A stretch of 64,000 nucleotides of DNA from Lactiplantibacillus pingfangensis (GTDB lineage Bacteria; Bacillota; Bacilli; Lactobacillales; Lactobacillaceae), in contig NZ_BJDG01000005.1 in assembly GCF_005404945.1 (NCBI RefSeq), forward strand, positions 62,001-126,000, in the 5' to 3' direction. Each line of letters starts with the position of its first letter. The first letter of the stretch is position 1. Positions 11,481 through 43,000 of this stretch are shown in pieces. The notes under the pieces are model-generated. The model did not search any database. It was not told the DNA's origin and saw nothing but the letters and a program-made list of their open reading frames with translations. Made by a program: the position numbers and the translations under genes.

Positions 11481-11499
11481 GTTACATTTCATAAAAACA

Positions 11500-11585
11500 A
11501 AAGGCACAAGATGAAGCAAACTTAGTGCTGCTTCCTTCCGGACCTGACACGATTCGTAAATCCACCCTTGCCTTAAGGCCTTGCG
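11500..11585 (-). ncRNA. ffs: Signal recognition particle RNA, small bacterial type
   Basis: The minus strand carries GTCAGGTCCGGAAGGAAGCAGC at about 11529-11550, the invariant apical tetraloop and internal-loop domain that binds Ffh. The flanks (GGCAAGGGTGGA and TCATCTTGTGCC) pair to close the rod. A TATTAT/TATAGT -10 box lies just upstream (about 11590-11600) and a terminator downstream. The tadA-SRP RNA-dnaX order is standard in Lactobacillaceae. The ends are approximate, within about 10 nt. Confidence 0.93.
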
Positions 11586-29394: not shown

Positions 29395-29545
29395 TTTGTT
29401 CAGGGATTTATAAAAAAATCCCTATGTCCACCAAGACATAGAGAAAAAACAATGTCCTCGGCAGGTAGATTAAGGCCATATTGGCCGCCTGAGTCTTAGG
29501 TAGAGATATTACTTAACCTCTAGTAATCTATCACAGATCACCCAC
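29395..29545 (-). promoter_or_regulatory. L10 leader with attenuator upstream of rplJ
   Basis: The minus-strand leader contains CCTTAATCTACCTGCCGAGG, resembling the L10-binding kink-turn element of Firmicute rplJL leaders, preceded by GGCGGCCAATATGGCC. It ends in CTATGTC-TTGGTG-GACATAG (29422-29441) followed by GGATTTTTTT, an attenuator-like terminator. L10(L12)4 binding would favour termination (family knowledge). Boundaries are approximate. Confidence 0.8.
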
Positions 29546-32804: not shown

Positions 32805-32924
32805 CGAGTCTACCTCCATAATTATCAGGTCTAACATTATCATGGACCGTTTCGAATGTCAATTTAAGCCATTGCGCTGTAAGTATCAAGTTTTTCTCGG
32901 TTTTCTCTAAATTCATTATCGAGT

Positions 32925-33095
32925 GACTCGATTCCCGCCTGTCGGGGGCTTCGTTTGGGGCTGGAACGCCATGAACCATTTTTGAGCCAAAAAGCGGTCT
33001 CAAAAGCTGGTTTTTGACTAACCGCGGCACCCCACTGTGCTAAGTCAAATGCCACGGCTGAGCCCCAAACGAAGCTCCCTCACGGCTAGAGACAT
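32925..33095 (+). repeat. Structured intergenic element, family D copy 1
   Basis: A 19-bp stem joins GGGGGCTTCGTTTGGGGCT (32944-32962) with AGCCCCAAACGAAGCTCCC (33061-33079), with one G-T pair. The 98-nt interior has TTTTGAG/CTCAAAA around CCAAAAAGCGGT, then TTTGACT/AGTCAAA enclosing GCAC/GTGC. A related element at 42600-42760 (minus) keeps the fold but changes much of the stem sequence. It lies between rpmG and sigH; the 33096-33211 remainder shows nothing recognisable. Orientation is assigned by the conserved GGCTGGAACG 5' segment. Confidence 0.78.
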
Positions 33096-33211
33096 GCATT
33101 ATTTTGGATCGCAGCAGCCACCAATAAAACTAACCAGATGCCAACCGAACTAATCAGCGTTTAAACGTAATCGTCTCCAATAGACCAGGCACCTTTCACA
33201 CTAACTCCAGA

Positions 33212-33769
33212 TCAAGCTAACAACAGTGCTCGCAGTTTACGTCGACAACGATCTATGGCGTTCAACACCGGGGCCAATTCAAGTTGTAGCTTCAACGCAA
33301 TACCTTGTGGCGTCAAGCCGTTTAACAAAGCCTTAAACACTTGATTTTCAAAATTAGAACACTCAATCACAAACTGTTTAATGATTTCGTGAACGAATAA
33401 AATGTCAATTGCCAATTGTTCTGGGCCAACTAACTCTTCTAAAATCATTGCTGCTTCATAATCTAACGAGAGTACATCTTGATCGGGCTGCCTTTTCTTG
33501 GCCTGGGTCCGTCGAATCAAATCAATGACCCGATTATTCAATAACAGCCGGTAAAACGCGCCAAAACTACTTGCTTGCCGGTGATCATACTGTTGCGCTG
33601 CATGGTGCATCACAATCAGGGCTTCTTGCGCCCAGTCATCAGTATCATAATTTCGGATAAAGTATTGGCGCTGTAGTTTATGAGCCACGGGAACATAACG
33701 CTTGGAAAGTTGTAACAAGGCATCTGTATCACCTGAACCGGCTAATCTAATCAAATGCTGTTCATCCAA
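33212..33769 (-). CDS. sigH: RNA polymerase sigma factor, SigH/ComX-like
   Basis: The 185-residue sigma-70-family protein has region 2 (YFIRNYDTDDWAQEALIVMHHAAQQYDHRQASSFGAFYRLLLNNRVIDLIRR, about 36-86) and a C-terminal region-4-like helix-turn-helix (LNGLTPQGIALKLQLELAPVLNAIDRCRRKLR). Its position between rae1 and rpmG is that of sigH in Firmicutes. In non-sporulating lactobacilli SigH is linked to competence genes (family knowledge). The start is TTG 33769 after GGAGAAA. Region 4 is more divergent than region 2. Confidence 0.85.
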   Translation of the reverse strand: MDEQHLIRLAGSGDTDALLQLSKRYVPVAHKLQRQYFIRNYDTDDWAQEALIVMHHAAQQYDHRQASSFGAFYRLLLNNRVIDLIRRTQAKKRQPDQDVLSLDYEAAMILEELVGPEQLAIDILFVHEIIKQFVIECSNFENQVFKALLNGLTPQGIALKLQLELAPVLNAIDRCRRKLRALLLA

Positions 33770-33957
33770 AGTATTTTCTCCACTAAACTGTATTCAGACC
33801 ACCCCGTTGAATCTGTAAAGCCTAATATACAGACGGTTTAGCAGGTATACAAGCGAACAAGCATTCTTATTTCACACTAGAAACTAATCCATCAATTAAC
33901 TAGTTTTGGGAATTCAACTAATTGATCAAAAAAAATACTTTTATTGATATCGCCAGA

Positions 33958-34500
33958 TTAATGATGGCGTTTAGTATGTTCTCGCTCTAACTGTTGCCGA
34001 TACTGATCAAGTGCCGACAATTGATGGTCATTCCAGGGCGATTTACGCACCGAGCCGCGGTCTTGACTCTGCAAAGCAGTATGCCGCACTTCTTTAAGAT
34101 CAGCATGCACACGCTTGCGTAACTCAAGTGCGGGAATTCGTAAGGCTCCCTCCGAAAAGATCACCCATTGTTCAGCCTGGTCACTAGTCGCAACCGTTAC
34201 TTGCAACACCCGCGACTGTTTATCTGCCGCTAACTTTTCAATATAACTATCCGCCGTCTGGTCCTTGCTCGTCCAAACGATTTCCAAATCAGCCTGCCGA
34301 TAACTTTTAGAATTACCGGGCACATACATCGCATCAAAAACAACCGTAATATTGAGACCACTAATTTTTTTATACTCGGTCAAAACATTTAAAAGTTCAT
34401 CCCGGGCTTCCGGTAGTCGATCGGTTTGTTTTAACTGAGCGAGTTCTGGCCAATTACCAATCATATTATATGCATCCACAATTAATAATTGTTGTTTCAT
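33958..34500 (-). CDS. rae1: NYN-domain ribosome-associated endoribonuclease (Rae1/YacP)
   Basis: The 180-residue protein has the NYN/PIN-like fold: LLIVDAYNMIGNW at residues 4-16, VVFDAMYVPG near 54-63 and TVATSDQAEQW near 101-111 supply the acidic catalytic residues. Rae1 in Bacillus cleaves mRNA in the ribosomal A site. It starts 2 bp after rlmB in the order cysS-mrnC-rlmB-rae1-sigH. The C-terminus is basic. The ribosome site is weak, so it probably depends on coupling to rlmB. Confidence 0.9.
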   Translation of the reverse strand: MKQQLLIVDAYNMIGNWPELAQLKQTDRLPEARDELLNVLTEYKKISGLNITVVFDAMYVPGNSKSYRQADLEIVWTSKDQTADSYIEKLAADKQSRVLQVTVATSDQAEQWVIFSEGALRIPALELRKRVHADLKEVRHTALQSQDRGSVRKSPWNDHQLSALDQYRQQLEREHTKRHH

Positions 34501-34502
34501 AA

Positions 34503-35276
34503 TTAATTTCCAAGTGGATGGCGCGACGTATAGCCCTGATAAATCAATAAGCTGGCTGCGACGCTGGCATTCAAACTCTGCACATGACCAACCATCGGAA
34601 TCGTCAACATCTCATCGACGCTCTTTTTCAGCAACGGCGAAATGCCTTTGCCTTCGTTTCCGATAATTAAGCCGACCGCGCCACTCGCATCCCAACGCCG
34701 ATAATCCGTGCCGGCCATATCCGTGCCAAAGATCCACAAGCCTTGTTCCTGTAACTGTTTCACAGCCTGAACAAGATTAGTTACTCGGGCCACCTTGACG
34801 TGTTCGATCGCGCCAGTAGACGTCTTTGCGACCGTGCTAGTCAACCCAACTGCCCGCCGCTTCGGGATAATGATCCCATGAGCGCCCGCCGCATCCGCTG
34901 TTCGCATGATTGACCCCAAGTTATGGGGATCTTCAATATTATCCAAAATCAAGAAAAATGGGGGTTCATTCTTAGCCTTCGCCACTGCAAATAAGTCGGC
35001 AATGGTACTGTATTCAAATGCAGCCACACCAACCGCAACACCTTGATGGTTACCATTATTCGTCAAGCGGTCTAATTTTTGCTTAGGGACATATTGGACA
35101 ATCAAATTGCGCTTTTTAGCAATCTTGGCAATATCATTGAGCACATCCGCTTGTAGCCCACTTTGAATAAACACCTTATTAATTTGTTGCTCACTTTTAA
35201 TTGCGGCCATCGCTGGATGACGCCCAATCACAAAATCAGCTGGTTCCGGAGTCGTTTGTTGTTCATCAGTTGACAT
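34503..35276 (-). CDS. rlmB: 23S rRNA (guanosine2251-2'-O)-methyltransferase
   Basis: The protein of about 257 residues is a SPOUT-class TrmH-family enzyme. An N-terminal substrate-binding domain ([13 protein letters not shown]) is followed by the knotted catalytic domain with [31 protein letters not shown] and [19 protein letters not shown], which are the three SPOUT motifs. The start is ATG 35276 behind GGGAGGG, overlapping the mrnC stop by 11 bp. A longer frame begins within the ribosome site. Confidence 0.94.
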
Positions 35277-35676
35277 TTGAAACCCTCCCTTCATCTACTT
35301 GTTCAATACACCAATTTGCCAGTTCAGCAATCCGTTCTGGCTGTTGTGTGAGTTGTAAATACCCAAAAATCGCTTCGAAGCCCGTGGAAATTCGGTAGGT
35401 CACAACATCCGTATGCTTAGCCGATGTATGACTTTTCGCATTACGACCATGCTTGAAAACGTCAACTTCGGTATCGGTCAACACATCTTCGGCCTGCATG
35501 CGTGCAATTAAAGCCGCCTGGGCCTTAGCGGAAACGTAGTGCGTGGCGTGGTGATGTAACTTGGTTGGTTTCGTATACCCAAGTTCAATCATGTGTTGCC
35601 GGATAAATGGTTCATACACCGCATCGCCTAAGTAGGCGAGTGCAATGCCATTCAATTGTTGATAATCGACTGTCAT
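35266..35676 (-). CDS. mrnC: Mini-ribonuclease III
   Basis: The 136-residue protein is the catalytic domain of RNase III without a double-stranded RNA-binding domain and trims 23S rRNA ends. [18 protein letters not shown] is the RNase III signature with the acidic residues. It lies 1 bp after cysS and overlaps rlmB, the usual Firmicute layout. Confidence 0.94.
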
Positions 35677-35677
35677 A

Positions 35678-37090
35678 TTAATCCTTTCTGAAACGAACCC
35701 CTTGAGGTGTGTCTTCTAAAACAATCCCCTGGGCCTTTAAGTCATCGCGAATTTGATCCGCCTTCGCGAAATCTTTATTTTTTCGAGCGGCTTCCCGTTC
35801 ATCAATCATCGCTTGGATGTCATCGTCCGCTAATTCCGGTGTATTGGCCGCTAACTTGACACCAAACACACTCACCAAAGTCGCCAGCGTCTGTTGTAGC
35901 GCTTGGATGGTCGTCGTCTGAACAGTCGTTTGACTCGCATAGACATTCGCCAGCTTGGCAAGTTCATACACTGCTGCAATCCCATTCTGAACGTTAAAAT
36001 CATCATCCATGGCCGTGACAAAACGGTCAATCAGGGCTTGGCGTTGTCCTTGCACAGCTGTATCGTCCCCGGCTTGGGCATCCTTCAAGCGATAAGCCAA
36101 GTTACGATAAGCATTTTGTAGCTTGCTCAGATTGTTCGCCGCTTCATCCAAATTTTTTTGACTGTACTGAATTGGCCGCCGATATTGCGTCGTCGCCATG
36201 AAAAAACGTAAAATTTGGGGATCGATTTGTTTAATAATATCATGAACCGTCACAAAGTTACCTAAAGACTTACTCATTTTTTCATTTTCGTCACCGACCG
36301 TGACAAAGCCGTTATGCAGCCAATAGTTGGCAAACTTCTGCCCCGTCTTCGCTTCACTCTGGGCAATTTCATTTTCATGATGTGGAAACTCTAAGTCTTG
36401 ACCGCCACCATGAATGTCAAAATTGTCTCCTAAATACTTTGTCGACATCACCGAGCATTCAATGTGCCAGCCTGGACGACCAGCCCCCCAAGGAGACGGC
36501 CAAGCGATTTCATTTGGTTTGGCCGACTTCCACAAGGCAAAATCAATTGGATCTTCCTTACGGTCCGTTTCTTCATCCGCCGTATGTTGGCTCGCACCAA
36601 CCTCCAAATCATCAATACGTTGATCGGATAGTTGCCCATACGCTTTAAACTTGCGGGTTCGGTAATACACATCCCCATCGGACTCGTAAGCATAACCTTT
36701 TTCAATCAATATTTTAATAAAGTCGATAATTTCTGGAATATTCTCAGAAGCACGCGGGTGGGCAGTTGCCGGTTCGATATTGACTGCTTCAGTATCGGCC
36801 ATAAAAGCCTTAATAAACCGATCAGCAATTGCTGGTACCGTCGTTTGATCTTCCTTGGCTCGTTTGATCATTTTATCGTCCACGTCGGTAAAGTTCGACA
36901 CATAGTCAACTTTAAAGCCGCGATATTCAAAATAGCGCCGAATCGTATCAAACGCAATCGCAGACCGGGCATTGCCAATATGAATATAGTTATAGACAGT
37001 TGGGCCACACACGTACATCTTCACTTCACCCGGCGTAATTGGCTTAAAGGGTTCTTTGGTTCGCGTTAAGGTATTAAAAACTTGTAGCAT
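35678..37090 (-). CDS. cysS: Cysteinyl-tRNA synthetase
   Basis: The 470-residue class I enzyme charges tRNA-Cys. It has the zinc-site [16 protein letters not shown] region (HIGN motif), [21 protein letters not shown] and KMSKSLGNF. The start is ATG 37090 behind GAGAGGAG; a longer frame enters the leader. The T-box leader upstream should allow expression when uncharged tRNA-Cys accumulates. It is followed by mrnC. Confidence 0.96.
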
Positions 37091-37171
37091 CGTTTTCGCT
37101 CCTCTCAAAGTACAATCGTTAATTTTCTCATTCATGTCAAGGTAGTATGAATATTTTCACACGACCCTATC

Positions 37172-37375
37172 AAAAAAGCGACTCTTATATCAGAGGATTA
37201 CTCCTCAAATACAAAAGACGCTTTCGCGTGCTTCCACTCTTGCTTCACCGTTGACCGGTCTCATTGTAGGGATAACGGCCACCCGATAACCATCGTGATA
37301 ATTGCACTTCAACTTGGGTCGCCGCGGCGTTCCAGTCCCCGTCGCTTCCTGAAGACATCTCCAAGTTTACTCTTA
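37172..37375 (-). promoter_or_regulatory. T-box riboswitch (tRNA-Cys) upstream of cysS
   Basis: The minus-strand leader holds a long stem I with candidate specifier TGC (Cys) at 37314-37316 in GAAGTGCAATT. A T-box-like segment AGAGTGGAAGCACGCG lies at about 37225-37240, where TGGA can pair with the tRNA-Cys end. It is followed by a terminator stem AAAGCG...CGCTTT with T run (37172-37224) containing GAGGA-GTAA-TCCTC. The T-box core differs somewhat from the usual GGGTGGNACCRCG. Confidence 0.78.
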
Positions 37376-37382
37376 TTATCGT

Positions 37383-38873
37383 TTATTTAGCTAATTCCGC
37401 AATCATGGCATCTAAGTGTTTCATGGTTGTTTCACGGCCTAATAATTCAATTGTTTCTGGCAATTCAGGACCATGCATTTCGTGAGAAACCGCAATCCGA
37501 ATTGGCATATACAATTGACGACCTTTGATCTTAGTATCTTTTTGAATTGACTTGATCGTCTTTTGAATTTCCGTTGCTTCGAAGACATCAACCGATTCAA
37601 TCCGTTGACGGAATTCTTTCAAGACCGTTGGTGCGGTCTCAACAGCTAATTCAGCCTTAGCTTCATCATTGATCTCCGCTGGGCCGTTAAAGAACAAGTC
37701 CGCCAATTCCACGATTTGACCCGTGTAACTCATTTGGTTCTTGTAGAGTGAGACTAACGTCCGCGTCCATTCAATTTGAGCTTGGGTTGGCCGTTTAGGT
37801 AAGCGTCCGGCCTTGATCAATTGACGAATTGACATCGCAAAGACTTCATTTTCATCGGACTTCTTGATGTATTGGTTATTAACCCATTCAAGTTTCTTCC
37901 CATCAAATGAAGCTGGCGATTTGCTCAAACGTTTTTCATCGTACATCTTGATGAATTCACGCTTAGTAAACAATTCATTCTCACCAACTGGCGACCAGCC
38001 GAGTAAGATGATGAAATTCAACATGGCTTCTGGTAAGTAGCCCAATTCCCGATATTGTTCGATAAATTGGAGCACCGTTTCATCACGTTTACTTAACTTC
38101 TTACCCGTTTCGGTATTGATGATCAAGCTCATGTGACCAAACTTTGGTGGATTCCAACCAAAGGCTTCATAAATCATTAATTGTTTTGGCGTATTGGCAA
38201 CATGATCGTCCCCACGGAAAACATGGCTGATTTGCATCATGTGGTCATCAACGACAACGGCAAAGTTATAGGTTGGCATCCCATCGCGCTTCTTGATGAC
38301 AAAATCGCCACCAACAGTCTTCGATTCAAATGACACATTACCCTTGACCATGTCGTCCCAAGCATAAGTTTGACCTTCTGGGACGTGGAAACGAATGACA
38401 GGTGTGATCCCAGCCGCTTTAGCAGCCGCAATCTTCGCTTGTTTTTCGTCTTCGCTCATGCCAGCAAATTCGTAGACGTAATGTGGCATTTCTTTGCGAG
38501 CCTTTTGCGCATCGCGTTGAGCCGTCAATTCGTCTTCCGTCATGTATGATTCATAGGCTTTGCCTTCATCAACTAATTGTTGAATCAATGGATCATAAAT
38601 TGCTTTCCGTTCTGATTGCCGATAAGGACCAAAGTCGCCACCCTTATCAGGACCTTCATCCCAGTCAATTCCTAACCAGGCTAAGTTATCCATCTGGCTC
38701 TTTTCACCGTCAGCGACGTTCCGCTTTAAATCGGTGTCTTCAATCCGTAAGATAAACTTTCCCTTATTATGCCGGGCAAACAAATAATTAAATAACGCTG
38801 TCCGAGCATTACCAATGTGTAAATGGCCAGTTGGACTTGGTGCGTAACGCACACGAATCTTGCTCTTTGCCAA
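37383..38873 (-). CDS. gltX: Glutamyl-tRNA synthetase
   Basis: The 496-residue class I enzyme charges tRNA-Glu and, in organisms without GlnRS, also tRNA-Gln for the GatCAB pathway. [20 protein letters not shown] (HIGH motif) and [12 protein letters not shown] (KLSKR form of KMSKS) are clear. I place the start at TTG 38873, giving [13 protein letters not shown]; the upstream in-frame ATG has no ribosome site, whereas AAAGAGG precedes the TTG. The preceding 180 bp has no recognisable leader. Confidence 0.96.
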
Positions 38874-39053
38874 TGTGATTAACGCCTCTTTCATTTTTTA
38901 TCAAAACTTATTCGACAGACTCATCGTGCCGAAACGTGGTTGGTCAAGCGACCGCTGCTAGTAATGACATCAGCACGCCACTTGTCCGCACACACTTGCT
39001 AGTCCAGTTTACAATTTTTAGCACTAAAAATAAAGGACTCAGCGACATTCCGG

Positions 39054-40223
39054 CTATTTATTCCGATGATTATTATTATTGTTATTGTGATGCGTGTTAT
39101 TCTGGTTCTCATGCTCCGGCTTGTCCGAAATACCACGATTAGCGTGTGCCAAGCGTGCAAAAATCATGCGGCCAGCATCCGTCTGTAAAGCACTCGTCAC
39201 GACAACATCCACTTTTTCATTAATATAGAACTTACCATCTTCGACAACGACCATCGTCCCGTCATCCAAATAGCCGACCCCTTGTTGGCGCTCGCTCCCA
39301 TTTTTAACGACCATAATGTTCATCTCTTCACCAGGAATAACCCGTGGCTTGAGCGATTTAGCGAGTTGGTTAATATTCAGCACTTGGACGTTTTGGAATT
39401 CGATCACTTTATTCAAGTTATAGTCGTTGGTCACAATGACCCCGTTGACTTTTTTCGCCAACTGAATCAATTTGGTATCAACTTCTGGAATGTCTTCAAA
39501 ATCACCTTTATACATTTCGACCGGGATAATATTCTCACTCTGTAACTTGTTTAAAATATCCAACCCACGCCGACCACGAACTCGTTTGATACTATCCGCC
39601 GAATCCGCGATGTACTGTAGTTCGTACAAGACGAAGTTTGGCACTAATAAGGTCCCTTCAAGAAAACCAGTTTTGACCAAATCATAAATACGACCATCAA
39701 TCAAAATGTTAGTATCCAAAATTTTATAGTGATGATAATTTTGATCCGGTTGCGCATCCGTAATTTCCGGCGAAGTTTCTTTTTCACGCCGACGGAAGTT
39801 AAAGACCTTACGCCATTCATCAATTCGAGTGGTCCCAACACGGGCACCAATATAACCAAAGAACAGCATCAAGATAATCGGGACGACCGTGTTCAATAAG
39901 AATAATGGACTGCGATTGAATAATTGCGAAATCAGAACCGCGATCAGTAACCCAATAATGAACCCGACACTTCCGAATAATAAAGTCATCGGATTTTGTT
40001 TTGACAGATTTTTTTCAACACGATCAACTAATCGCATCGCCGCATTCGCTAAAAATAGTGACAGCACCCATAAAACAAGTGCCCCCAACAAAAAGTTGGT
40101 CAAAATATTATTTAACAACGGATTCGGTTGCGTCCAAATCGTGTTCCATAAAAATGGCAGGTAAGTTAATCCCAACGTCCCACCAACGACAATGAACACG
40201 AGTCGCACCGTTAATTTCTTCAT
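39054..40223 (-). CDS. PIN/TRAM-domain membrane protein YacL
   Basis: The 389-residue protein has four N-terminal membrane segments (residues 5-130), then a PIN nuclease-like domain starting YKILDTNILIDGRIYDLVKTG with acidic residues in VNGVIVTNDYNLN, and a TRAM domain GEEMNIMVVKNGSERQQGVGYLDDGTMVVVEDG. It is the conserved Firmicute YacL, adjacent to radA, of uncertain function, probably RNA-binding or nuclease. Unusually, the last 18 residues are almost only His and Asn, encoded by a short AAT/AAC-type repeat. GGGG precedes the ATG. Confidence 0.88.
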   Translation of the reverse strand: MKKLTVRLVFIVVGGTLGLTYLPFLWNTIWTQPNPLLNNILTNFLLGALVLWVLSLFLANAAMRLVDRVEKNLSKQNPMTLLFGSVGFIIGLLIAVLISQLFNRSPLFLLNTVVPIILMLFFGYIGARVGTTRIDEWRKVFNFRRREKETSPEITDAQPDQNYHHYKILDTNILIDGRIYDLVKTGFLEGTLLVPNFVLYELQYIADSADSIKRVRGRRGLDILNKLQSENIIPVEMYKGDFEDIPEVDTKLIQLAKKVNGVIVTNDYNLNKVIEFQNVQVLNINQLAKSLKPRVIPGEEMNIMVVKNGSERQQGVGYLDDGTMVVVEDGKFYINEKVDVVVTSALQTDAGRMIFARLAHANRGISDKPEHENQNNTHHNNNNNNHRNK

Positions 40224-40244
40224 GGCGTCAGCCCCTTTTTAAGT

Positions 40245-41621
40245 TTATTTTGGTTGTTGTAAAGCTAATTTAAGGGCCTCTTTCAAGGTGGCCACTCCAA
40301 CCACATCAATCCCTTTAGGAATATCCCAGCCTTGCAGATTATTCTTTGGGACAAAGATCCGTTTGAATCCTAACTTGGCAGCCTCACCAACACGCTGTTC
40401 AATCCGGTTAACCCGGCGAATTTCACCGGTCAGGCCAACTTCACCGACAAAGCAATCGCTTGGCCGCGTTTGTTGATCGCGGTAACTTGACGCGACACTG
40501 ACTGCAATCGCCAAGTCAATTGCCGGTTCATCCAGCTTCACGCCGCCAGCTGCCTTCAAATAAGCATCTTGATTTTGTAGCATTAAACTCGCACGCTTTT
40601 CAAGCACGGCCATCAACAAGGATACCCGATTGTGGTCGAGGCCACTAGCGGTTCGTTTGGCATTGCCGAAGACGGTTGGTGTCACTAATGCTTGGACTTC
40701 AACCAAGATTGGCCGCGTACCTTCCATCGAGACCACAATCGCCGAACCGGTCGCATCCTTCAAGCGTTCTTCTAAAAAGATTTCAGAAGGATTCGCGACT
40801 TCGTACAACCCACCCGTCCGCATTTCAAAAATACCGAGTTCATTAGTTGAGCCAAACCGATTTTTGACCGCGCGTAAAATCCGGTACGTATGGTGTAAAT
40901 CGCCTTCAAAATAAAGCACCGTATCCACCATATGTTCCAGAATCTTCGGCCCGGCAATGGCACCGCCCTTGGTCACATGACCCACGATAAAAATTGTAAT
41001 GCCATTAGTCTTCGAAATCTGCAACAACTCCGCGGTGATTTCACGAATTTGAGAAACAGAGCCAATCGCCGAATCGACATCGGGTTCTTGCATGGTTTGA
41101 ACTGAATCAATCACCACGTACTGCGGTTTGGTTGCTTCAATGGTTGCCCGAATATTACTCATATCCGTTTCTGGATATAAATAAAATTCTTCACTTTCAA
41201 CTTTTAGCCGTTCAGCACGCATTTTGACTTGTGCCGCACTTTCTTCACCAGTGACGTACAAGACAGAGCCACCAGTTTCAGCCAACTGACCGGAAACTTG
41301 TAGCAGTAAGGTTGACTTCCCAATCCCAGGATCCCCACCGATCAACACCAGCGACCCCGGTACCACACCACCGCCAAGCACCCGATTGAATTCCTGTAAC
41401 TTCGTCTTGACCCGTGGCGTTTTCGTCAAAGAAACTTCCTTGAGTCGTTGTGGCTTAGCCTGTTTACCGGCAAAGCTAACGCGTGATTTACGGTTCGGCG
41501 TTTTGTCGAAGTGTTCTTCAACCAAGGTATTCCATTCGCCACAATTAGGACAACGCCCTAAGTAACGTGGTGTTGAATACCCACAATTAGAACAAACAAA
41601 TTGTGTTTTAACTTTTGCCAC
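40245..41621 (-). CDS. radA: DNA repair protein RadA
   Basis: The 458-residue RecA-like helicase promotes branch migration in recombination. It has the N-terminal zinc finger [19 protein letters not shown], Walker [13 protein letters not shown] (about 94-105), the RadA-specific KNRFGSTNE motif and a C-terminal Lon-protease-like domain. The start is GTG 41621 after GGAGG. It lies 21 bp before yacL, cotranscribed. Confidence 0.96.
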
Positions 41622-41735
41622 TAATCATTTCCTCCAATCTACGCTCTTAGCCTAATGATTAAATATAGTCACCTTTTATTCTACCATTAATGGCCTTGAA
41701 AGCAGTGAAATTACCTTGGTTTAAGGTATTTTTAG

Positions 41736-42278
41736 TTATTTTCCACTCGAACCAAAACCGCCAGAACGGGTCGCCTTAATTTCAGTTTCATCGGTGGCCG
41801 TTAAATACTGCGTAAAAATACCTTGCCCAATCCGCTCGCCCTTTTTGATCTGGACATCACGAATCCCCATATTAACTAACTGAATAAAAATTTCGCCTTC
41901 ATTATTTTCATTATCATAATAGTCGGCATCAATGACACCAATCCCATTTGGCAAAATCAACCCGCGCTTCAGCGGGTTACTAGACCGGTTGGCGATCATT
42001 AAATATTCATCATCATTCATATAAGCCTTGATTCCAGTTGGTACCAAAAATGGTTTAAGCGTTTTGGCGGCTGCATCCAAGTCAGTAGCCGAGCTCGTCT
42101 CGCCATGGCGAAGTTGCCAGAGCACCTTAATAAAGTTCAACTTCCAAATTGACGGTAAAGTAAAATCCACTGCGGCTTCAAAATCATAGCCAGCAGCCTT
42201 TTTGGTCGTCCGATAAGGAATGGTTAATCCCGCTTTTTCATATTTGCTCACAATCTTAAATCCACGTGCCATTTTCAT
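41736..42278 (-). CDS. dut: dUTP diphosphatase
   Basis: The 180-residue trimeric enzyme converts dUTP to dUMP and limits uracil in DNA. RSSNPLKRGLILPNGIGVIDADYYDN holds motifs 2 and 3; GERIGQGIF motif 4 and the glycine-rich GGFGSSGK C-terminus motif 5. It has an insert of about 30 residues after motif 1 compared with minimal dUTPases, as seen in related lactic acid bacteria. The start may be either ATG at 42278 or the ATG two codons later, which has better spacing from GTGGG. Confidence 0.9.
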   Translation of the reverse strand: MKMARGFKIVSKYEKAGLTIPYRTTKKAAGYDFEAAVDFTLPSIWKLNFIKVLWQLRHGETSSATDLDAAAKTLKPFLVPTGIKAYMNDDEYLMIANRSSNPLKRGLILPNGIGVIDADYYDNENNEGEIFIQLVNMGIRDVQIKKGERIGQGIFTQYLTATDETEIKATRSGGFGSSGK

Positions 42279-42599
42279 TTCCCACTTTCTTTAGCTGTTT
42301 AGTTTTTTTTACGACATCTAAGCTGAAATATGCCAAGCACGATTGTGCCACCATGTCGCTGTTTAGAGATAGGTAGTATTGTCACCTTTTATAATGAAAT
42401 CAAGAATAGCTGATGACATCGAGCGATGAGCTGACCACTATCATCTCAAATTTTTATCATTTATTACAAGAATTGCTTGTCGTTATTATTTCGTCTATAA
42501 GTCGCACTGTAACAATCTAAATGCATGCTTTTTTTACTTGCGTCACAATCAAGACCATTGCTTGTCAGAGCTAGTCACCTCAAATAGACAGCACATTTA

Positions 42600-42760
42600 G
42601 CCGTGAGGTCGAGGAAATTTAGGGCTCAGTGGTGAAATTTTACTTAGCTGGCGGTGATTTACCGGCAGTTTAGTAAAAGGCTGGCTTTCGAGACCGCTTT
42701 TTGGCTCGAAAACGGCCCACCACGTTCCAGCCCTAAATTTCCTCGACCGGCAGGCGGCAA
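42600..42760 (-). repeat. Structured intergenic element, family D copy 2
   Basis: On the minus strand GTCGAGGAAATTTAGGGCT (42729-42747) pairs perfectly with AGCCCTAAATTTCCTCGAC (42608-42626) over 19 bp. The 102-nt interior repeats the copy 1 layout: TTTTCGAG/CTCGAAA around CCAAAAAGCGGT, TTTTACT/AGTAAAA enclosing CGGT/ACCG. Copy 1 is at 32925-33095. It lies in the 720-bp gap between divergent dut and GNAT genes. The segment 42279-42599 next to dut has no recognised feature beyond a presumed dut promoter. Confidence 0.78.
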
Positions 42761-42870
42761 CCACGCACTAGCTCCAGACCACTTTTGACCCGAAACCAAC
42801 TCACCACGTTCCAGTCCTAAATCTTCTCGACCGGTAGACGGCAACTTCGCACTAGTTTCAGGCCGCTTTA
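42761..42870 (-). repeat. Truncated tandem copy of the family D element
   Basis: On the minus strand this repeats the 5' half of copy 2: CCGGTCGAGAAGATTTAGG, ACTGGAACGTGG, a degraded TTTCGGGTCAAAAGTGGTCT hairpin, and GCGxxGTTGCCG. It lacks the 3' half. It looks like a decayed duplication directly upstream (in element orientation) of the intact copy. Confidence 0.65.
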
Positions 42871-43000
42871 AGCTATCATCGAACACACCCGATAATGTTA
42901 ATATTTTACCATACTTCAGCTAGATGTATCGTTGACAAATCAGGCATTTATCGGTTTAATTACCTTGAGAGTTAAAACCCTTTACAAGGTGGTGACAGCA

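Follow-up and report, generated by a model that had tools for sequence, protein, structure and literature searches.

What kind of element are two similar, strongly folded sequences found in a window of Lactiplantibacillus pingfangensis DNA (the whole 64,000-nt stretch analyzed here, from contig NZ_BJDG01000005.1), and what keeps their fold? They lie at 32937..33088 on the plus strand (copy 1) and at 42598..42755 on the minus strand (copy 2), and we are confident that both are copies of a mobile repeat. We also lean toward regarding them as arms of non-autonomous repeats resembling miniature inverted-repeat transposable elements (MITE-like), which would have spread between genes across Lactiplantibacillus and a small number of related genera. 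Together with their relatives they form a superfamily of folded repeats present in 19 of 21 Lactiplantibacillus genomes and missing from Rfam, and the repeat appears to be undescribed. An elaborate fold, association with several transposon ends and apparent conservation after insertion raise a testable question, namely what selects the fold of a mobile repeat. Throughout, the first-folded strand is the one folded in a preliminary description of this DNA (plus for copy 1, minus for copy 2), and the opposite strand is its complement.

Two copies of one fold

Both sequence comparison and a covariance model (R1) place the copies where the preliminary description had put them; its length of about 180 nt was an overestimate, since the element measures about 150-160 nt plus flanks. 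Copy 1, a structured arm of the main family of the window's genome, scores 159.2 bits with R1, and copy 2, a structured arm of a second subfamily, 149.3 bits. RNA folding against shuffled sequences gave z = -7.8 for copy 1 and z = -10.4 for copy 2, with 0 of 200 shuffles equally good for each, and z = -8.5 for copy 1 on its minus strand. A multibranched fold is common to the two. Moreover, the nine compensated changes reported among 19 stem positions are real: the 5' arms differ at positions 2, 3, 5-10, and 14, and all nine are Watson-Crick pairs in both copies, next to a previously unmentioned G.T pair at stem position 4 of copy 1. In the inner hairpins, TTTGACT/AGTCAAA is likewise replaced by TTTTACT/AGTAAAA and GCAC/GTGC by CGGT/ACCG, as had been described. 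The claim of a conserved fold therefore stands, while that of two unrelated intergenic places does not, these being two of 48 copies that score above 120 bits in this genome.

Copy number and taxonomic range

R1 was built from 18 copies and, at a threshold of E <= 0.001, has at least 57 matches in the window's genome, including the 48 high-scoring ones, with 150 of 973 candidates scored. A pattern for the interior motif, allowing up to 3 mismatches, gave 49 matches there and its reversed version one. A match of the first pattern at locus L045 was dropped, being coding-like sequence with no match to the covariance model. Across a survey of 60 genomes, with at most 50 candidates scored per genome, R1 matched the window's own genome, 18 of 20 other genomes of the genus, 3 of 16 from other genera of the family, and 0 of 23 from other families, so that the element is not confined to this strain; such confinement had been named in the preliminary description as a ground for refutation. 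Matching Lactiplantibacillus genomes carry from 7 to more than 130 matches each; with 150 candidates scored, there were at least 132 in G019, at least 130 in G014, 67 in G003, 52 in G005, and none in G001, which with G002 makes up the same-genus genomes lacking a model match in the survey. Among the matches listed from pattern searching, the named records belong to Lactiplantibacillus (songbeiensis, nangangensis, dongliensis, daoliensis, and mudanjiangensis) and to Levilactobacillus.

At the gathering score, none of the 4227 Rfam 15 families was matched by an arm, and at E up to 5 only weak matches appeared near the arms, which we take as chance; a known RNA family was rejected on these grounds. 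Plasmid carriage was set aside as well, copy 1 having no match, as was phage carriage, one strict pattern having no match in viral contigs. Furthermore, among the papers listed in literature searches, none has the repeat as its subject by title or by the start of the abstract, a coverage that mostly leaves out subscription journals.

Mobility of the repeats

Copy 1 lies within a stretch of about 345 bp (32871..33215, right edge uncertain by about 13 bases) that is absent from three relatives, G009, G013, and G020, in which 3, 15, and 27 bases, respectively, separate the two flanks. Same-genome alignment and pattern search identified a left terminal repeat of the main-family unit, TAAGTATCAAGTTTTTCTC, at 32880..32898 on the plus strand; they found no right-hand partner for it at copy 1, and other copies in this genome have both the left repeat and matching right ends, about 130-700 bp past the arm. 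Copy 2 is contained in a 590-base stretch (42292..42881) replaced by 89 bases in G009 and by 98 in G020, and it is shared at the same site with G013 (L. nangangensis). Just before copy 2, sequence and ortholog alignment revealed a truncated second arm holding the 5' half only (42771..42839, minus strand), which is not in the G013 ortholog of the site.

The insertion carrying copy 1 also abuts the 3' end of an open reading frame (ORF) at 33212-33769 on the minus strand, whose orthologs in relatives resemble a sigma-H/ComX-type factor. This frame stops close to the boundary of the insertion, and its last codons may therefore differ from those of relatives.

The arms are typically paired. In the window and loci L046-L187, mostly from named relatives, 71 of 80 neighboring full-length pairs less than 1500 bp apart are convergent, and the spacing of convergent neighbors reaches 710 bp, with two wider cases of 5.6 and 9.5 kb. 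Many of these convergent units carry, outside both arms, a terminal repeat resembling CGCTTGGTGCTAGTTG. With up to 2 mismatches this repeat type occurs 198 times in G017, 192 in G008, 22 in G013, and once in the window's genome (4, 2, 1, and 0 for the reversed pattern). One paired unit (L067) is flanked by an exact 11-bp duplication and its ortholog (L077) is empty; direct repeats of at least 8 bp, 23-28 nt outside both arms, were seen in 10 of 71 pairs. These terminal repeats and duplications speak for transposition of the DDE type. Two elements of about 960 bp in G013 have the same terminal repeat and a 289-aa frame each; both frames match DDE domains, and the one that was scored is an IS982-family transposase (NF033520, 219 bits, cut-off 130). 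A terminal repeat shared with an insertion sequence (IS) was thus found for the paired units of L. songbeiensis, L. dongliensis, and L. nangangensis, the IS itself being seen in the last. A third IS982-type element of about 960 bp in G013, at L189, has a broken frame (these elements lie in L188 and L189).

The units themselves seem to be intergenic and free of transposase genes. A total of 131 of 138 overlap no kept ORF, a soft count because short ORFs overlapping a unit had been discarded beforehand, and in the one spacer listed ORF by ORF (L229) only frames of up to 55 aa overlap. No autonomous element with arms around a gene was seen among convergent neighbors. By our reading, the IS982 transposase, which had been fetched via its terminal repeat, is the sole transposon protein in the 22 largest protein clusters from the fetched loci.

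The module also has relatives with other ends. Two further structured repeat families with larger folds occur in the window's genome (L198-L217; hairpins AGCCTGAGGAGCGGTCT and AGCCATAGTGCGGTCT), often as convergent composites, the third family following the second in convergent orientation in six of nine aligned copies. The terminal repeat seen at both further families has 51 matches in this genome and 0 reversed, and the terminal repeats of the own-genome families differ from the IS982-type repeat. A diverged form was detected in G003, G005, and G019, with convergent arms spaced, for example, by 419 bp in G019 and by 288 bp in G005. A hairpin shared by several families, AGCC-N3-6-GCGGTCT, occurs 96 times in the window's genome, whereas its reversed pattern was found 6 times there. 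One kind of folded module is thus associated with several different transposon ends.

The preliminary description had also considered recognition as part of a known transposon end, which holds in a limited sense: the MITE-like units of one lineage have the module about 24 nt inward of their terminal repeats, in inverted pairing, and it is not the terminal repeat itself. This arrangement would suit a module that is outright part of the ends and bound by transposase. Yet the two intact IS982-family elements of G013 have the same terminal repeat as the MITE-like units and no module, and at least three terminal repeats unlike one another accompany the module or its relatives elsewhere; we consider such a direct role highly improbable.

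Consensus fold, covariation, and conservation

The consensus has an outer stem, then an internal loop with GGAAC facing CTGA, a conserved hairpin (GAG-CC-AAAAAGC-GG-T-CTC, T bulged), and a second hairpin with a TAA/TAA-like internal loop. Covariation was assessed on 149 distinct copies (150 aligned of 231 matches, from 100 of 101 named loci). Pairing holds in 95.7% of the pair cells, whereas column shuffles give 78.0% and slid partners 33-50%; double changes occur at 31 of 48 pairs. None of 500 shuffles and no slid version reached the observed value on any of five covariation measures; the alignment was fitted to structure, and these figures consequently lean toward it. Covarying helices and a conserved unpaired core are both present, as for a structured RNA, several unpaired core positions being invariant or nearly so and bulges persisting uncorrected.

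Covariation had been put forward as strong evidence, and the fold is indeed well beyond chance. It is weaker proof than claimed, because the paired double changes cluster in adjacent runs (12 observed against 4.5 expected, 1 of 2000 permutations being as high), and such runs can also be yielded by replication template switching, a published mechanism (PMC8794818). Template switching may therefore inflate the covariation. Carried further, the covariation could be mostly mutational, the arms of quasi-palindromes having been copied onto each other in inert MITEs with no function; this would also accommodate the shared site of copy 2, where four neighboring stem positions changed on both arms and one was left C.A. 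The near-invariant unpaired core, the persistent bulges, a strand asymmetry of wobble changes (see below), and the better conservation of arms than of spacers after insertion all argue against this account, which we hold to be rather improbable. Separately, the stem base varies in multi-base blocks, sometimes on one arm only, among the otherwise near-identical own-genome copies L011, L015, L020, L025, L032, and L043. In general, covariation in a multicopy element should be read with a warning: alone, it neither gives the strand nor proves an RNA.

Over 14 same-site comparisons, identity was 0.79 in the arms, 0.67 in the adjacent 40 bp, 0.75 at 40-150 bp beyond, and 0.53 in the spacers. Four of 18 same-site pairs had been left out as duplicates of one place; the totals keep all 14. 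Five of these have arm identities of just 0.42-0.64, so that separate insertions may be involved, and three concern a single site across three species. When orthologs were set against the closest same-species paralog that had been fetched, the ortholog was nearer in 14 of 20 cases, level in one, and not nearer in five; in two of those 14, the only paralog was the unit's own other arm. The simplest reading of these sequence comparisons would be purifying selection on the arms after insertion; gene conversion could also lie behind the arm similarity.

Strand of the fold and possible role

The kinds of change at paired positions differ between strands. Among nearest neighbors of 267 distinct copies, which makes the events non-independent, changed pairs became G.T or A.C in a ratio of 93:109 when read on the first-folded strand and of 210:63 on the opposite strand. 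T-box leaders of the same genus, treated in the same way as a control and oriented by motif (29 of 30 loci), gave 46:5 on the RNA strand and 19:18 on the other. Repeated by subset, the test gave 90:105 against 228:73 for 235 copies and 13:20 against 24:8 for 31 main-family copies (first-folded against opposite); the structure of large clusters was predicted from the first 60 rows, on each strand separately. Moreover, the opposite strand folds more stably in 217 of 267 copies. Strand-asymmetric wobble changes point to a strand-specific molecule read opposite to the first-folded strand, and the RNA strand implied in the preliminary description is probably the wrong one. That the folded molecule would be an RNA from the opposite strand is, on this sequence evidence, a judgment we leave evenly balanced.

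The best explanation that we can offer, and one we think somewhat probable as a whole, joins an IS-moved MITE-like repeat, an opposite-strand RNA, and a transcript role. IS transposases would move the units in trans. The RNA would fold from the opposite strand, so that in paired units both RNAs would run outward from the spacer, and one host partner would bind the shared hairpin. Made by a weak internal promoter or within neighboring transcripts, the folded RNA would stabilize or insulate transcripts wherever a unit has inserted, and the conservation of arms after insertion would thereby be explained. This last component, a folded element of transcripts with one binding partner and an effect on transcript stability or insulation, is doubtful, and we commit to it at low confidence because the bcr repeats discussed below are the nearest published analogue known. 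Bolder still, and in our view unlikely, the repeats could be mobile non-coding RNA units, in which a paired unit fires two structured RNAs outward, a shared hairpin probably meets one protein partner, and different IS carry the units. If true, this would be a bacterial counterpart of the RNA-gene amplification of short interspersed elements (SINE-like), in which DNA transposases do the moving and the host retains the inserted copies.

Several results tell against this explanation. Copy 1 has no clear target duplication, and no transposase element with the main-family terminal repeat was recognized in the window's genome. The asymmetry of the repeats, 3:1, is weaker than the 9:1 of the T-boxes, and some wobble columns are reversed (U.G in 94 of 149 and 70 of 149 copies at two pairs). 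With a fixed 48-pair set on the first-folded strand, A.C outnumbers G.T by 140 to 72, or by 75 to 57 without the six most skewed pairs. At some single shared sites, the flanks equal or exceed the arms in conservation. Promoter-like sites are not enriched beside the arms, with 47 of 261 against 58, 41, and 53 in three control directions. Finally, gene orientation around the repeats lacks the clear preference that a role as untranslated region (UTR) or terminator might predict.

The missing promoter enrichment would suit an element acting as DNA, in which a hairpin or cruciform matters for transposition, replication, or the binding of a nucleoid protein or gyrase, as in bacterial interspersed mosaic elements (BIMEs), and no RNA is made. 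Mobile, position-indifferent repeats in inverted pairs agree with this, as do the about equal G.T and A.C changes on the first-folded strand. A fold of double-stranded DNA predicts strand symmetry, yet both the wobble ratios and the fold stabilities set the strands apart; folding of a single DNA strand remains compatible with them. We regard a DNA-level element as conceivable, although not likely.

Other signals near the arms were few. On the opposite strand of three families, a -10-like peak lies 9-12 nt ahead of the arms; it is a weak lead with no matched control and a tie with another offset in one family, and it is absent in the family of G003, G005, and G019. A terminator or UTR role was dropped on orientation counts (--, ++, +-, -+) of 23, 10, 10, and 7 for pairs and 17, 13, 10, and 13 for singles, which rest on crude ORF calls and are not clearly off a baseline of 108, 88, 68, and 78. 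Replication-strand bias gave no clear signal either (singles 22 to 20 and 17 to 17, pairs 24 to 16), with a crude A/B typing of arms in which 21 pairs were typed AA and 6 BB. Resemblances to K-turns, attC sites, group II domain V, and single-strand origins (sso) were considered and dropped.

Relation to known systems

For the bcr repeats of the Bacillus cereus group, all families taken together, 84 of 165 and 62 of 155 copies are reported within mRNA in two strains, as is a correlation of bcr3 with longer mRNA half-life, about which the authors caution that numbers are small (PMC3446304). Bcr1 is listed as a structured family of 147-167 bp (PMC2267715). Like bcr1-bcr3, the repeats studied here are intergenic and MITE-like; unlike them, the Lactiplantibacillus repeats have convergent arm pairs, a hairpin common to families, and several terminal repeats. 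IS982-family MITEs are similar in being non-autonomous units with the terminal repeat of a same-genome DDE element and target duplications. They differ in that our structured arms are not in the IS, and in that the own-genome families have other terminal repeats, for which no IS was recognized.

In REPIN/BIME systems, inverted pairs of repetitive extragenic palindromes (REP) are moved by REP-associated tyrosine transposases (RAYT). Here, too, two palindromic units in inverted arrangement form a dispersed non-autonomous repeat; the Lactiplantibacillus units differ in being about 150 nt long and multibranched, some with terminal repeats and target duplications. Furthermore, the single Y1 transposase gene of the window's genome (144-aa frame, C19:36693-37055), which would be the REPIN-type mobilizer, is not beside a detected copy, the nearest hairpin match on the same contig being about 13 kb away. 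Candidate structured RNAs have also been published for the Lactobacillales, among them Lacto-rpoB and Lacto-usp (PMC2864571). These and Rfam families resemble our repeats as structured RNA candidates, from the same bacterial order, and the arms are set apart from Rfam families by the gathering-score search described above.

Other structured RNAs in the window

Elsewhere in the window, a T-box-like leader at 37211-37386 on the minus strand scored 53.9 bits, under the Rfam gathering score of 93. An L10 leader (29404-29518, minus strand) and a bacterial small signal recognition particle (SRP) RNA (11488-11585, minus strand) both scored above the Rfam gathering score.

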